NCBI GenBank assembly: GCA_016839765.1
Contig: JAEOTP010000016.1
Location: 68,027 to 132,026 of the forward strand
Length of the DNA: 64,000 nucleotides
Origin: Promethearchaeota archaeon
GTDB lineage: Archaea; Asgardarchaeota; Lokiarchaeia; Sigyniarchaeales; SOKP01
Direction of reading: 5' to 3'
Notes under the pieces: generated by a model
What the model saw: only the letters and a program-made list of their open reading frames with translations
What the model was told of the DNA's origin: nothing
Database searches by the model: none
Made by a program: the position numbers and the translations under genes
Shown here: piece after piece, positions 24,252 through 43,479 of the stretch
Layout of the letters: the number at the start of each line of letters is the position of its first letter
How positions within the stretch are numbered: position 1 is the stretch's first letter

Positions 24252-24962
24252 TTATTCTTTTGTTTTATTTACTTCAATAATAAGCTTGTCTCCATCTTTC
24301 AAGTTGAAGTAATCTCTCAAATAAGGTTTAGCTAAAATTTCTACCACATTTTTTTTATGATGGGTTCGTTTTATATCGAGTATTGCTGCTTTACGACGAT
24401 TATTCTTGTTATCAAATCTGTAAATGTACACATCATAACATTTTACAGGGCCATATTCTCTTTCTTGATTTTTAAATCCATTAATAATTACAGGTCTAAT
24501 ATGATGCAGTTTTTCTCTTAAAATTGAATTATCTGTATCACTCAACTTCAAATTGAGTGTCCCCTTATAAGGTTCAAATCCCAATCTTTTTTTAAATTGA
24601 TCAAAATAACCTTTAATAGCCACATAATAACCTCCCTCATGTATTCCTTCAATTACTTCCCCTACAATCAATATAGATTCGAGAAGTTCCTTCAGATTTT
24701 TATATATATTAAGCATTACGCTTGCTCCCACTTTTGTAATCGAGATTTTCTGTGTTTTACCTTCACTTCTTCTTTTAATCCAGCCTAAATCTTCTAAATC
24801 TTTAATTCTTCGACTTCCAGTTTGTTGGCTTAAGCCTAATAATTCTCCAAATTCTACGCTACTGATATTAATAGACCTTCTATCTTTTGTTAGTCGACAA
24901 AGTTCAAAAAGAGCAAACCAATTTGCATAATTTTCAGGGGTGATCTCTTCATTTTTTTTCAT
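24252..24962 (-). CDS. ribK: CTP-dependent riboflavin kinase with N-terminal HTH (RbkR/RibK type)
   Basis: 236 aa. Residues 1-95 are a MarR-like winged helix (SSVEFGELLGLSQQTGSRRI). Residues 97-236 are the archaeal riboflavin kinase barrel with GEVIEGIHEGGYYVAI, PYKGTLNLKL and a C-terminal DGDKLIIEV strand. It makes FMN using CTP instead of ATP. The HTH-kinase fusion is known in archaea, where it also represses riboflavin genes. It is the last gene of the translin / sepS / ribL / ribK run, 11 bp after ribL. Confidence 0.9.
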   Translation of the reverse strand: MKKNEEITPENYANWFALFELCRLTKDRRSINISSVEFGELLGLSQQTGSRRIKDLEDLGWIKRRSEGKTQKISITKVGASVMLNIYKNLKELLESILIVGEVIEGIHEGGYYVAIKGYFDQFKKRLGFEPYKGTLNLKLSDTDNSILREKLHHIRPVIINGFKNQEREYGPVKCYDVYIYRFDNKNNRRKAAILDIKRTHHKKNVVEILAKPYLRDYFNLKDGDKLIIEVNKTKE

Positions 24963-24973
24963 TAAATATGCAA

Positions 24974-25417
24974 CTATTTATTTTCTTTGTAAGTTTTAAT
25001 AATTTTTCTTTTTATTAAACTAGAAGAATGCAACGCATATTTATCATAATATGATTTCATTCTTTTTACTTCTATATGGTTTAATCCTTTTTTTTTCAAT
25101 CCCTCTTTTAAAGTATTAAGATCATACTTTTGATCTGGACCCAATAAAATAATGTCAGGATTAATCTCTTCAACTGTTTTAAGAGTATCATTATCACTTC
25201 TTCCTAATCTAGCTTCTTTTACATTTTTAATATTTTTTACAACTTCTAATCTCTGTTGTTCTGGAATTACAGGACGTTCACCTGAATATAATTCCCGATT
25301 ATTATCTGTAGCAACAATTACATATACATCTCCGATTTTTGCTGCCTCATTAAATAAGAATATATGACCTGGATGGATTATATCAAAAGTTCCAGCAACT
25401 AATACTTTCTTTTTCAT
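24974..25417 (-). CDS. ribL: FAD synthetase, archaeal (RibL)
   Basis: 147 aa cytidylyltransferase-fold protein. HPGH in TFDIIHPGHIFLF is the HxGH nucleotide-binding motif, and SSSLIKRKI resembles the ISSTxxR-type second motif. Size and sequence match archaeal RibL, which adenylylates FMN to FAD. It sits 11 bp upstream of the riboflavin kinase, so two successive flavin cofactor steps are encoded together. A glycerol-3-phosphate cytidylyltransferase would look similar, but the context favours RibL. Confidence 0.88.
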   Translation of the reverse strand: MKKKVLVAGTFDIIHPGHIFLFNEAAKIGDVYVIVATDNNRELYSGERPVIPEQQRLEVVKNIKNVKEARLGRSDNDTLKTVEEINPDIILLGPDQKYDLNTLKEGLKKKGLNHIEVKRMKSYYDKYALHSSSLIKRKIIKTYKENK

Positions 25418-25439
25418 TTTAAAACCTATTTTCTAATAT

Positions 25440-26999
25440 TCATTTAATTACATTAAACGAAAGACCGATAAAAACAGGTCCTCTAATATCAATTTTTTTT
25501 TGTTTAGAGTGAATATACTCTAGTACAACATCATCTACCTCTAAATTCACTTCAGAAGCACGATAACACATTTTTATTCTATGTTCATAAGAAGTTTTAT
25601 TTTGATCTAATAGAATTTCTATATTATAAGCCATTTCTGAAGCGATAGCTTCAAGGTAATTTTTATTTGTGTTGATTGCATTTTCAGGAATTTCATTTGG
25701 AGGTAATCCTATAATATTTCCATCTTGTACCCATATCTTATTAAGGGAGGCAGGGCCTAACAATTTTACATTTTTATCTTTTTCCCATATAAATACAGCA
25801 ATCCTCTTATTTTTTATGATTCCTTCCCAAACCTTTATTTCTATGGGAGATTTTTCATCCTTGCTATTCAAAGCGGTTTGTAAAATTGCATTTTTGATTT
25901 CAATTCCTTTTTCAGTTAAAGGAATATATTTATAGTTAATTGATCTACTGATTTCTTCATCTGAAAATGCAATATCTTCATAAAAGTAAGGATATACTAA
26001 TTTTCTAATGTCTTCAATTTCAGTTTTTATCATACAAATTCTTTCAACACCAAAACCAATATTAAAAACAGGATACTGAATGTTATATTGTGCTAAACTT
26101 ACAGGAGAATAAAATCCTCCATCTCCAATTTCGATCCATTCTTTAGTTTTAGGATGTTCTACAAATATTTCAAACTCAGTTTGAGGAGCATAATACTTTG
26201 ATGTGGCTTTCTTAATATCTGATTTATTATTTTTAAACCCCATTTCTTCACATATATCAGATGCAATATTCTGACAATCTTCCAGGGAAATTTCTTCTGC
26301 CATGATAACTAAAGATAATGTATTAGAACAATATAGATGAGTGGCATCAATTTTTTGTTCTCGGCGAAATTTAGGGCAAATTGAAAAATATTGAAGTGGA
26401 AGGGACTTTTTTTTCTGCAATTCATTTAATACTAAAAACCATAAAGCCGTAGTATGGCTTCTGAGTGTAGTTTTTGTAGGTATTGGTTTTAAATTTTTCA
26501 ATTCTGGAAAAACTTTATCAATAATTTCGGTGGCTTCAGACTCTTCAACTTCTAACCTTTCAATAAAGGTTTCAATTAAATCATCAGCTTCAATTTCTCC
26601 TTTTTTATATGCTCTAAAGATATTTTTTAATACATCAATTTTATTAAAATTTGGAATTATTTTCTTTAAAAAATTGATTTTTTCATTTGAAATTCCAATA
26701 TCTGGGCGAGGTAAACCCGCTAAAAAAAATAATCTATCAAGAATTAAAGCAGCTTCAGGGCCATATTGCTTATAAATTTCACTTTCCTCGACAAACATTG
26801 GTAAAATTAGTTCTTCAAACCCTAGAGAGATCATCTTTTTCCTTGCATTAAAGATAAAGTCGTTTACAATGTGGCTTTTACCCTTTTTCACTAAATTAAA
26901 ATAGTTGCCTTTTAGCTTCAAAAGGTTTTTCGTCTCAAGCCATGCTTTCTCATAGTTTATCTTGCTTTCATGTTTTATTTTTTCAGTTTCAAAAGGCAT
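25440..26999 (-). CDS. sepS: O-phosphoserine-tRNA(Cys) ligase (SepRS)
   Basis: 519 aa, close to the length of archaeal SepRS. Conserved regions include FEELILPMFVEESEIYKQYG, FFLAGLPRPDIG, the class II motif 2 CPKFRREQKIDATHLY, TEWIEIGDGGFYSPV-like strand TKEWIEIG with GFYSPVSLAQY, and motif 3 NIGFGVERI. The enzyme charges tRNA-Cys with O-phosphoserine, which SepCysS then converts to Cys. It is related to PheRS alpha but lacks PheRS hallmarks. It lies between translin and ribL in one operon. No cysS or pscS gene is in the window. Confidence 0.9.
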   Translation of the reverse strand: MPFETEKIKHESKINYEKAWLETKNLLKLKGNYFNLVKKGKSHIVNDFIFNARKKMISLGFEELILPMFVEESEIYKQYGPEAALILDRLFFLAGLPRPDIGISNEKINFLKKIIPNFNKIDVLKNIFRAYKKGEIEADDLIETFIERLEVEESEATEIIDKVFPELKNLKPIPTKTTLRSHTTALWFLVLNELQKKKSLPLQYFSICPKFRREQKIDATHLYCSNTLSLVIMAEEISLEDCQNIASDICEEMGFKNNKSDIKKATSKYYAPQTEFEIFVEHPKTKEWIEIGDGGFYSPVSLAQYNIQYPVFNIGFGVERICMIKTEIEDIRKLVYPYFYEDIAFSDEEISRSINYKYIPLTEKGIEIKNAILQTALNSKDEKSPIEIKVWEGIIKNKRIAVFIWEKDKNVKLLGPASLNKIWVQDGNIIGLPPNEIPENAINTNKNYLEAIASEMAYNIEILLDQNKTSYEHRIKMCYRASEVNLEVDDVVLEYIHSKQKKIDIRGPVFIGLSFNVIK

Positions 27000-30511: not shown

Positions 30512-31036
30512 TCACGCTTCTTTCACACTTTCTAAACATGCTTTAGCAATTTTTTTAAAAGCTTGTTCTACATTTTCTCCTGTTTTAGCAGAAGTTTCTA
30601 AATAATCACAGCAATTAAGTCTTTTTACTAAATCTTCTGCTTCTGATCTCTCTACTTGGCGTTTTAAATCCGTCTTATTTCCAACTATTATCATTGGAAT
30701 TGACTTTTTTACTGACTTTTTAATACTACTTATCCAACCAGGAAGTTTTAACAAGGATGGTTGACTTGTAACGTCATATACGCCGAAAGCCCCATTACTG
30801 CCCTTGAAATAGATTTGGCGAAGCTTACTAAATTGTTCCTGACCACCAATATCCCAAAGGAGTAATCTAACATTTGTATTTTCAACTTCTACATCTTTTA
30901 TTAAAAAATTTGAGCCGATTGTTTGTTTTAATTCTGGATTAAAATAATCCTTTATGTATCTAATCAAGAGGGAGGTTTTACCAACTCCACCCGCCCCAAA
31001 AAGAGTAATCTTAAATTTAAATGTGTTCTTCTGCAT
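30512..31036 (-). CDS. Small GTPase, Ras/Rab/Arf superfamily
   Basis: 174 aa from the ATG at 31036. All G boxes are present: P-loop GAGGVGKTS (14-22), Thr39 in switch I (KQTIGSN), WDIGGQE (61-67, with catalytic Gln66), NKTD (120-123) and TSAK (148-151). WDIGGQE mixes the Arf-type GGQ with a Rab-like remainder. There is no C-terminal Cys motif for prenylation and no N-terminal Gly for myristoylation. Probably a cytosolic switch; Asgard genomes carry many such genes. A TTG at 31045 is a less likely start. Confidence 0.93.
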   Translation of the reverse strand: MQKNTFKFKITLFGAGGVGKTSLLIRYIKDYFNPELKQTIGSNFLIKDVEVENTNVRLLLWDIGGQEQFSKLRQIYFKGSNGAFGVYDVTSQPSLLKLPGWISSIKKSVKKSIPMIIVGNKTDLKRQVERSEAEDLVKRLNCCDYLETSAKTGENVEQAFKKIAKACLESVKEA

Positions 31037-31274
31037 TTTAATCAATATTTTTGAAGTTAAGTTATAAAAAATGATTATTTCTAAGCGTTACATTTTTATT
31101 AAATACAAAAATGCTTTTGTATATTTGATATATTATATTATAGGTATTTATATGTTTAGCATTAAATATGATTAGAAGGCATTTAATCCGATATCGAATA
31201 TTAGTTGTATGTATTTTGTTTAAGATTTTTATTTATTACTCCTCTTACTCATAAGAAAAAAGAGTTATGGCTAA

Positions 31275-35502: not shown

Positions 35503-36744
35503 ATGTCTACTTTTTTTACAGAAGAGTCGTTGCAGAGAATACGCTATCTGCATTTTAAAATTAAAAAATTAGAAGAGGCCTTAGAAAAAGAGGAAGAACA
35601 CTTCAGTTTGGATGATTTGAATCTTATATTAGAATATACTAAAATATTAAATATTAATTATCAAAATCACAATCAAGCTGAAATTATAAAAAAATTAGAT
35701 ATTACTCCTAATTATTTAGATCCTCTTGAAAATAATCGCGAAATTGAGATTAAGGATTTAATGTTTGAATGTGCTCGTGTCTTATCGGTTTTAGCCAAAG
35801 CCTACTCTCAATTATCTGAGAAATTTGAAGATGAGGAAGATTGGGAAAATTCAGTTGTTGCTATGTCTGAAAGTAGTAAGATTTATAAAACAGCAGCTTA
35901 TTTCAGCACAGCAGTAGTCCTACAGAACGATCTCGGTAAAACACTAAACCCCGAACATCTTGAATTAAATTCGGAAGAGACTCGCGTATTGGCGCAAAGT
36001 GTCGCTGCTTTACGAGAAGAAAACAAAAATAATGTTTACTTTGCCTCAAAACTTTATGCAGGTTTAAGTAGCTTATCAAAAAGAATCTTTTATTTAAAGA
36101 AACATGATGAAAAGAAAAGGCATCAGTTAAGAGCCCAATTTCATTTTGATATGGGAAAAGCCTGCCATTTAAAGGCTATTGCTTCATTAGAATCATCAAT
36201 CACCACAATAAATAAAGAAAAAGTACAAAAATTACAGCAAAAAGCTAATTTTTATTATAAGAAGGCTGAAGAAATCTGGGAGGATATGTATAAGGATTTA
36301 CCTAATTTATCGGAAGAAGAGCAGGATAGTATCCAACTAAATTTATCCATTGTCAAGGATTTATTGAAAAATAATGATGTGGAACCTTTAGATTATGAAG
36401 AGATTAAAAGAATACAGGATCCAGAACCTATAGTAATTATCCCTGAAAATTTAGCTCCATTTGTTCCCAAAAATATTGTATATTTGACCAAATTTGTGCC
36501 TAAAGATTTAAACATTAAAAGATTTAGAACATTCCAAAAGAAGAAATTAGAACAGAAAATTCCTTATAGTAAACGAGAAAAATTAAATGATAAAAAAGCA
36601 GGAATAGTAAGAACGATTAATGAATTAAAATCTTTAAGAGAAAATAACGAAATTGATATTGAAAAATTTGCAGAACTTATGGAGAAATATTCTACTAAAC
36701 TTAAAATGATTGATACAGCAATTGAAAAATTAGCAAAACAATAA
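35503..36744 (+). CDS. Probable BRO1-domain (ALIX/Bro1-like) protein
   Basis: 413 aa, almost wholly helical. Blocks follow the BRO1 order: FECARVLSVLAKAYSQLSEK (about 89-109; compare the E-K/A-x-V-L-F-N-I-A-ALYSQ core), NSVVAMSESSKIYKTAAYF, a long helix with LYAGLSSLSKRIFYL, LRAQFHFDMGKACHLKAIA, KANFYYKKAEEIW, and NNDVEPLDYEEIKRIQDPEP at the end, like the END-x-I-Y-x-x-x-V-P segment. The final 90 residues form a basic coiled coil. Eukaryotic BRO1 proteins bind ESCRT-III (CHMP4). No ESCRT gene is adjacent. Assignment rests on pattern reading only. Confidence 0.6.
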   Translation: MSTFFTEESLQRIRYLHFKIKKLEEALEKEEEHFSLDDLNLILEYTKILNINYQNHNQAEIIKKLDITPNYLDPLENNREIEIKDLMFECARVLSVLAKAYSQLSEKFEDEEDWENSVVAMSESSKIYKTAAYFSTAVVLQNDLGKTLNPEHLELNSEETRVLAQSVAALREENKNNVYFASKLYAGLSSLSKRIFYLKKHDEKKRHQLRAQFHFDMGKACHLKAIASLESSITTINKEKVQKLQQKANFYYKKAEEIWEDMYKDLPNLSEEEQDSIQLNLSIVKDLLKNNDVEPLDYEEIKRIQDPEPIVIIPENLAPFVPKNIVYLTKFVPKDLNIKRFRTFQKKKLEQKIPYSKREKLNDKKAGIVRTINELKSLRENNEIDIEKFAELMEKYSTKLKMIDTAIEKLAKQ

Positions 36745-41579: not shown

Positions 41580-42122
41580 TTAATAGCTATTAATTATCGT
41601 CTTGACGATTTCTCTAGTTTTTTTTTCCAATCTTTTTATTGTTGAATTATTTGTTATCTTAAAATTAGCTTCATTCAATACATTAATAATACCAAATCCA
41701 ATTTCTCTTTTATCTCTTTCAAATATTTCAATAAAATCTTTTGAATCATCGCTTCTATCCCGTTGAGCAATTCTTTTATATCTTAATTTATCCTTAGCTG
41801 CAATTTCGATTAAGGGGAATTTCCAATGTTTCCTAAATATATCAACTTCAGTTATAGATCTAATACCATCAATAAAAATAATATCCGCTTCTAAATTTTT
41901 AATTAATTCAACACATTTTTGAGCGATAATCCCTTCACCTTCCTTTTCTCTTAAATCTTTGGCAATTTTTCCTAAAATCTCATCAGTTGGTTCAAGGTTT
42001 CTAATCTTAGCTTCAATTCTTACAACGTCTCCCATATTTATGATTTTTCCTAAATCTTTAATAGCGTTTATTGCTGTTGATTTACCTGAGCCAGGAAGCC
42101 CACACAATCCAATAACCTTCAT
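41580..42122 (-). CDS. UPF0200-type P-loop nucleotide kinase
   Basis: 180 aa. Walker A GLPGSGKST at residues 8-16, MGDVVRIEAK near 35, and FIDGIRSITEVD near 87 are hallmarks of the archaeal UPF0200 family, related to dephospho-CoA and adenylate kinases. The phosphate acceptor of this family is not established. It converges with prs (7-bp gap). Confidence 0.85.
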   Translation of the reverse strand: MKVIGLCGLPGSGKSTAINAIKDLGKIINMGDVVRIEAKIRNLEPTDEILGKIAKDLREKEGEGIIAQKCVELIKNLEADIIFIDGIRSITEVDIFRKHWKFPLIEIAAKDKLRYKRIAQRDRSDDSKDFIEIFERDKREIGFGIINVLNEANFKITNNSTIKRLEKKTREIVKTIINSY

Positions 42123-42228: not shown

Positions 42229-43479
42229 ATGAATGATAGAAGCAACAAGGATCAAGATTCAAAAAAAAAATCACTCAATCAAGACAAATTTGAAGATTCA
42301 GGAGAAGATAATAACAATTTAAAATCTATAAGGTTGACGGAATTATCTCCAACTGATAAACTAATACAAAAATATGGAATTAATCCTGCGAAAACACCCG
42401 TTTTATTGAAGCTTAATGCCTATCGAAGAATGGTTGGATATGCAATGAGATATGCTAATAATGAATTATCGGCAAAAAATTGGCGCGAAGTTTATGGAAT
42501 CCTAATTGGATCTATAGATAACAATAAAGAAGTGATTATAAAAGATGCTATTCCAATGATTGTAGGAGACCGCGCAGGTGTAAGATATGAAAACAAACAA
42601 TATGTTGATATGGCTCAAATTGATGAATCCGTATATCAAAAGTCCATTCAAGATAAAAAGAACGATTTTATAATAGGATGGTGGCATACTCATCCTGGAT
42701 TTAAGTTTTTTTTTAGTTCTGTAGATTGCTTAACTCAATTAGGGTATCAAATTCCAAATCCATTTGCGGTAGGTTTAATTTTTGATCATTGTGAATTAAA
42801 ATCTACAGATTATTATCTAGGAGTTGCTGCACTACGCATGTTAAATCCAGAACAAGAAATGCTTTCTACATACGATTTTACAGATTTGAAATTTGAATAC
42901 CCTAAAAAAGATATGGTGAAAAAAGTTACTCCAATTTTAAAAGATTTAGATAAAAGTATTACAAAAGTCTTAAAGGAAGTAAAATATATTGACCAAACTT
43001 TACGTAAGAGGTATTTAGCTCAATTACAGAGAAATTATGGATTAATTTTAGTACCTAAAAGTGATATTATAGTAACTGCTGATGAAGAGGAAGCTGAAGA
43101 GGATGAGAGATATTTATATGAATGGGATCCTGATTTCTTTAAAAAAAGTTTTAGGATTCCTAAGTTCAGAGAAAAAGTGGAAGAGGATATTAAAAAGTAT
43201 GAAGAATCTTTATTAGAAATCAAGAAAAGTGATGGTGAAGCAAAATTTAAAGAAAAGAGAGAAAAATTTAAGAAAAAAATTCATGCACTTTTAGCAAAAC
43301 CAAATGATTGGTATAATAGATGTATTGAAGATTTCACTAAACGTATTGAAATTATTTTTCCTTATTATGATTATTTAGATACCAATGAACGTAAGATAAT
43401 TGAACATTTTGAGTCTAGAAGCTCTGAGTATTATAAAATTTTAGACTATTTAAATTCACGTTCAGAATTTAATCTATAA
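42229..43479 (+). CDS. JAMM/MPN metalloprotease, Rpn11/CSN5-like
   Basis: 416 aa. A disordered charged N-terminus (1-55) is followed by an MPN+ domain. The zinc ligands and acid are complete: Glu87 in WREVYGILIG, His153 and His155 in WWHTHPGF, and Asp166 in FSSVDCLTQ, giving E-x(n)-H-x-H-x(10)-D. The spacing and the D-x-x-T-Q ending resemble eukaryotic Rpn11/CSN5. Residues 230-416 are a long helical extension with a charged coiled coil. Probably a deubiquitinase-like isopeptidase. No ubiquitin, E1 or E2 gene is nearby. Confidence 0.85.
   Translation: MNDRSNKDQDSKKKSLNQDKFEDSGEDNNNLKSIRLTELSPTDKLIQKYGINPAKTPVLLKLNAYRRMVGYAMRYANNELSAKNWREVYGILIGSIDNNKEVIIKDAIPMIVGDRAGVRYENKQYVDMAQIDESVYQKSIQDKKNDFIIGWWHTHPGFKFFFSSVDCLTQLGYQIPNPFAVGLIFDHCELKSTDYYLGVAALRMLNPEQEMLSTYDFTDLKFEYPKKDMVKKVTPILKDLDKSITKVLKEVKYIDQTLRKRYLAQLQRNYGLILVPKSDIIVTADEEEAEEDERYLYEWDPDFFKKSFRIPKFREKVEEDIKKYEESLLEIKKSDGEAKFKEKREKFKKKIHALLAKPNDWYNRCIEDFTKRIEIIFPYYDYLDTNERKIIEHFESRSSEYYKILDYLNSRSEFNL

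Follow-up and report, generated by a model that had tools for sequence, protein, structure and literature searches.

A conserved Lokiarchaeal gene predicted to encode a very divergent BRO1-domain protein, with JAMM-fused relatives in other Asgard archaea

The window analyzed here, the whole stretch of 64,000 nucleotides from a Lokiarchaeal genome, harbors a gene whose product had been described in a preliminary description as an ALIX-like BRO1-domain protein with a basic tail of its own (Table 1). The open reading frame is a real and conserved gene, with 15 orthologues in Lokiarchaeal genomes (67-98% identity) and a single copy in its own genome. Comparison with one of the orthologues revealed 79, 47 and 196 differences at the first, second and third codon positions, respectively, and the gene is therefore under purifying selection. 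Synteny of the locus extends across Lokiarchaeal genera. Neighbouring genes comprise metabolic and tRNA-synthetase genes as well as those for a Ras-family GTPase and a JAB protein, and no ESCRT genes were found among these neighbours. The gene of the Ras-family small GTPase (30512-31045, minus strand, Pfam E 5e-49) is kept in synteny with the BRO1 gene. The JAB gene lies 5.5 kb downstream of the BRO1 gene and occupies the same place in 11 of 14 Lokiarchaeal loci; its product is a possible functional partner of the BRO1-like protein.

Table 1. Positions in the window of the BRO1-like gene, of segments of its predicted product and of the downstream JAB gene.
Feature	Position	Strand	Basis
Gene of the probable BRO1-domain protein	35503..36744	+	ATG start, 413 aa
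BRO1-like domain (aa ~4-336)	35512..36510	+	Foldseek to PDB Bro1 domains; profile alignment with ALIX, Bro1, BROX and HD-PTP
Beta hairpin (aa 70-82), where ALIX has the TFTWKDAF segment	35710..35748	+	AF2 secondary structure, profile alignment
Helix LMFECARVLSVLAKAYSQLSEK (aa 86-110), aligned with ALIX LGYEKSCVLFNCAALASQIA	35758..35832	+	AF2 model, profile alignment
Helix NVYFASKLYAGLSSLSKRIF (aa ~178-198), aligned with the I212/L216 helix of ALIX (CHMP4 site)	36034..36096	+	
C-terminal return segment (aa 295-336), family signature [DE]P[EQ]P	36385..36510	+	Alignment of Asgard members
Basic C-terminal helical hairpin (aa 337-413)	36511..36741	+	AF2 model, composition, Asgard alignment
JAB1/MPN protein, intact JAMM (HTHPGFKFFFSSVD)	42229..43479	+	Pfam JAB E 1.4e-11, sequence

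The AF2 model of the 413-aa protein, built with 14 similar sequences (pLDDT 78.6, pTM 0.68), displays an elongated helical domain with the beta hairpin and places the basic tail in a short helical hairpin; the remaining four of the five models were of low confidence. In line with the domain assignment of the preliminary description, the model matched PDB Bro1 domains in Foldseek. All 21 matches at E<=1e-3 were of this type, representing yeast Bro1, ALIX, BROX and HD-PTP, with identities of 11-16% and, for single-domain entries, alignments spanning 326-374 columns and TM scores of about 0.42-0.57. The first match of another kind was a designed repeat protein (E 4.8e-3). TPR-like proteins appeared in the same ranking only at E 0.03 or worse, and thus the search did not return TPR or other helical repeats in place of BRO1. 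The Bro1 fold, an elongated helical domain with a TPR-like core and a beta hairpin, was recovered in a second AF2 model, calculated with 21 sequences for a protein of the sister family f6 in which a JAMM domain and a BRO1-like domain are fused. Its five models were alike in confidence. In the structure search the C-terminal domain of this fusion (pLDDT mostly >85, 66-83 in a few stretches) resembled the Bro1 domain of HD-PTP with E about 1e-6 over 313-319 columns, and its N-terminal part matched Rpn11 and CSN5.

In detail, the two motifs quoted earlier, FECARVLSVLAKAYSQL (aa 88-104) and NDVEPLDYEE (aa 291-300), are present in the protein. The helices follow the BRO1 order, but the proposed number of six helical blocks is only approximate, as about nine core helices are found in the AF2 model. 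In the helix NVYFASKLYAGLSSLSKRIF, G187 is invariant across all aligned Asgard members, and the [DE]P[EQ]P signature near the domain end is common to nearly all Asgard BRO1-like members. The additional tail is real, with a pI of 9.9 and a net charge of +9. Among the aligned Asgard BRO1-like proteins it occurs only in Lokiarchaeal forms, and no other clear copy of it was found in its own genome. The term "ALIX-like" is appropriate for the Bro1 domain but not beyond it, where a V domain and a proline-rich tail are missing.

Searches with the sequence of the 413-aa protein alone, in Pfam, in NCBIfam and by phmmer in the PDB, did not find BRO1, and Pfam likewise gave no TPR family. The profile of the Lokiarchaeal family detected distant relatives in the Asgard family f26 (E 1e-9 to 1e-12), for which BRO1 is the top Pfam family, with E 4.9e-4 and 1.8e-3 in the central part of the profile. 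The scores of these homologues against PF03097 (17.7-19.5 bits) lie below the gathering cut-off of 35.1, which is a detection threshold and not a structural feature. This cut-off was exceeded in none of 228 Asgard genomes, where only sub-threshold matches occurred; the best of these (family f12, locus L059) was TPR-like in appearance. With an f26 protein as bridge query, relatives were found in f1 (Lokiarchaea), in f5, f6 and f7 (sister families in the same class) and in f17. Including f26, the BRO1-like family is present in about 70 of the 228 genomes, a count from which a few weak, apparently spurious matches were set aside.

Profile alignments by hhalign between the Asgard family and the four eukaryotic Bro1 domains, taken from human ALIX, BROX and HD-PTP and from yeast Bro1 (the sequences used matched PDB entries essentially exactly), reached probabilities of 68-83% over 250-335 columns. 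The register was correct, with ALIX LGYEKSCVLFNCAALASQIA opposite MFECARVLSVLAKAYSQLS. The score was 48, whereas none of 120 shuffled controls scored above 24. In one run, however, a TPR-like Asgard family came to 46, and BRO1 and TPR-like repeats can therefore not be told apart from sequence profiles alone. When the PDB was searched with an HMM of the family (the A2 profile), Sel1/TPR-like proteins were matched and Bro1 was not. The original assignment to BRO1 is upheld by the 21 PDB matches, by BRO1 as top Pfam family of f26 and by the second, more confident model. Predicted structures together with the intermediate f26 sequence thus support the view that the gene encodes what is probably a true but very divergent Lokiarchaeal BRO1-domain protein.

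The relatives show diverse domain architectures. In f5, f6 and f7, a JAB/MPN domain (Pfam JAB E about 1e-15) with an intact JAMM motif of the type HxHx10D (HSHPG...D) is fused to the BRO1-like domain. One of these fusions (L117) lies near homologues of the window genes at 24255-26999 and another (L119) near a homologue of the adenylate kinase-like gene at 41583, which points to a shared ancestral neighbourhood. The possibility that the JAB protein of the window is the split-off counterpart of the JAB domain in the fusions was considered but is not favoured: two other JAB proteins of its own genome match the fused JAB better, and a JAB tree sets it apart from the fusions with weak support, the nearest in this tree being, again weakly, the C87 JAB.

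In those long Lokiarchaeal paralogues that were scanned, one or more HhH domains precede the BRO1-like domain, with HhH_5 at the N-terminus (E 1e-9 to 1e-12). Long paralogues of about 570-790 aa were observed in Lokiarchaea at L048:2044-7537, L049, L047, L055 and L058, three of them being those scanned for HhH; they often form tandem gene pairs and adjoin dnaJ/dnaK in several loci. In members of f26, an additional C-terminal region follows the BRO1-like domain. In the genome of the window, a small protein with a Zn ribbon (C6, L150:8248-8874), whose gene adjoins three clustered JAB genes, resembles by eye this region in its N-terminal part. Members of f17 have a Cys-rich, Zn-ribbon-like C-terminal tail, for which Pfam gave sub-threshold matches only. 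The f17 genomes (L112:660-6501, L113, L114, L115 and L116) share a conserved cluster around the BRO1-like gene that includes genes of an archaeal actin homologue (ALP_N E 5e-15), an Arf/Ras-like GTPase and a DEAD-box protein. No account of Asgard proteins with a JAMM-BRO1 or HhH-BRO1 architecture was found in the literature covered, to which most subscription journals and preprints do not belong.

The genome of the window contains two ESCRT-III genes. A cluster of this genome (C17, L152:946-6313) was read by eye as comprising ubiquitin-like, E1-like, E2-like and JAMM genes. Among the 228 Asgard genomes, ESCRT-III is present in 213 as compared with about 70 for the BRO1-like family, and with a gene so nearly universal in the phylum, co-occurrence gives no informative signal.

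In eukaryotes, ALIX recruits ESCRT-III, and we take its residues K147, K151, K215 and L216 to belong to the CHMP4 site. In the alignment, the register of which is uncertain at these positions, F180, L184 and K183 of the 413-aa protein stand opposite I212, L216 and K215 of ALIX, and E115 and V119 opposite K147 and K151, where the basic positions are lost. I212 is part of the CHMP4-binding site of ALIX (PMC3230590). With the hydrophobic positions kept and two of the basic ones changed, this surface may be conserved only in part; an ESCRT-adaptor role of the protein, as put forward in the preliminary description, is a reasonable but still putative reading.

The explanation that we prefer, and regard as moderately probable, is that of a scaffold. 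The Bro1-type domain, rigid and curved, would dock with its concave face on an ESCRT-III subunit, at the C-terminal helix of the latter, and would carry a second function to this site. In the sister lineages this function would be the fused JAMM deubiquitinase, and in Lokiarchaea it may lie with a separate partner, or with membrane or nucleic acid to which the basic hairpin would bind. The fused JAMM of the sister lineages supports the ubiquitin connection more firmly than the ESCRT one. Accepting the Bro1 fold and common ancestry, the domain might be a scaffold for substrates or complexes of a ubiquitin/JAMM system without contact to ESCRT-III, the ESCRT role being a eukaryotic gain. The JAMM fusions in f5, f6 and f7, the conserved neighbourhood shared with a JAB gene, the absence of ESCRT neighbours and the changed basic residues of the CHMP4 site agree with such a role, as do the HhH domains, Zn-ribbon-like tails or adjoining actin-like gene of some relatives. 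The retained hydrophobic positions of the CHMP4 site and the presence of both ESCRT and ubiquitin systems in the genome speak against it, and we consider it unlikely, if still a serious contender.

CdvA links DNA and ESCRT-III in Sulfolobus, and an adaptor of BRO1 type that handles nucleic acid or positions chromosomes could be imagined likewise, with HhH paralogues and the basic tail binding DNA and the Bro1 domain binding a division polymer. The N-terminal HhH_5 domains (E 1e-9 to 1e-12) in long paralogues and the pI of 9.9 of the tail are consistent with this, but the protein of the window is devoid of HhH, its tail has no known nucleic-acid-binding motif and the comparison with CdvA draws on general knowledge. 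This role is improbable. A generic TPR-like helical repeat protein, a curved helical solenoid that came to resemble Bro1 by convergence, would account for the missing Pfam BRO1 match of the Lokiarchaeal protein itself, for the nearly equal score of a TPR-like family in one profile comparison and for the Sel1/TPR-like matches of the A2 profile in the PDB without any Bro1, but is improbable given that 21 Bro1 chains rank above every TPR-like protein in the structure search, that the beta hairpin and the C-terminal return segment are located as in Bro1, that Pfam ranks BRO1 first for the f26 homologues and that the independent model of the JAMM fusion also matches Bro1.

Homologues of Bro1-type ESCRT-III regulators have been claimed in Asgard archaea by Eme et al. 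2023 (PMC10307638); the text consulted names neither lineage nor protein, and the present family may or may not be the same one. According to a survey of ESCRT systems in 2024, Asgard orthologues of Bro1/Alix are not identifiable (PMC10936438). A family that is invisible to the Pfam model and includes a JAMM-BRO1 architecture could resolve this disagreement. The JAMM-BRO1 fusions represent a physical link of deubiquitination to a Bro1 scaffold outside eukaryotes, and the connection between ubiquitin removal and ESCRT may predate eukaryotes. That Bro1 adaptors arose in Asgard archaea coupled to JAMM, and that the eukaryotic partnerships of Bro1, ALIX and HD-PTP with deubiquitinases descend from JAMM-BRO1 proteins, appears rather doubtful at present. 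The BRO1-like proteins have an ordinary size.

In comparison with known systems, the Lokiarchaeal protein shares with the BRO1 family (PF03097; yeast Bro1, ALIX, BROX and HD-PTP) the fold over the full domain, the helix order, the beta hairpin and the C-terminal return segment. It differs in its low identity of 11-16%, in the lack of a Pfam match, in the changed CHMP4-site lysines corresponding to K147 and K151 and in its own basic helical hairpin. Compared with ALIX (PDCD6IP), it has neither V domain nor proline-rich region and only 77 residues after the domain. The proposed scaffold resembles yeast Bro1, which attaches to Snf7 and brings in the deubiquitinase Doa4, a cysteine protease. The coupling of a Bro1 domain or of ESCRT-III to a deubiquitinase, known from Bro1-Doa4 and from AMSH/STAMBP, is mirrored in the Asgard fusions. 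Unlike Bro1-Doa4, the proteins of f5, f6 and f7 carry JAMM and BRO1 on one polypeptide, and their JAB domain resembles Rpn11 and CSN5.
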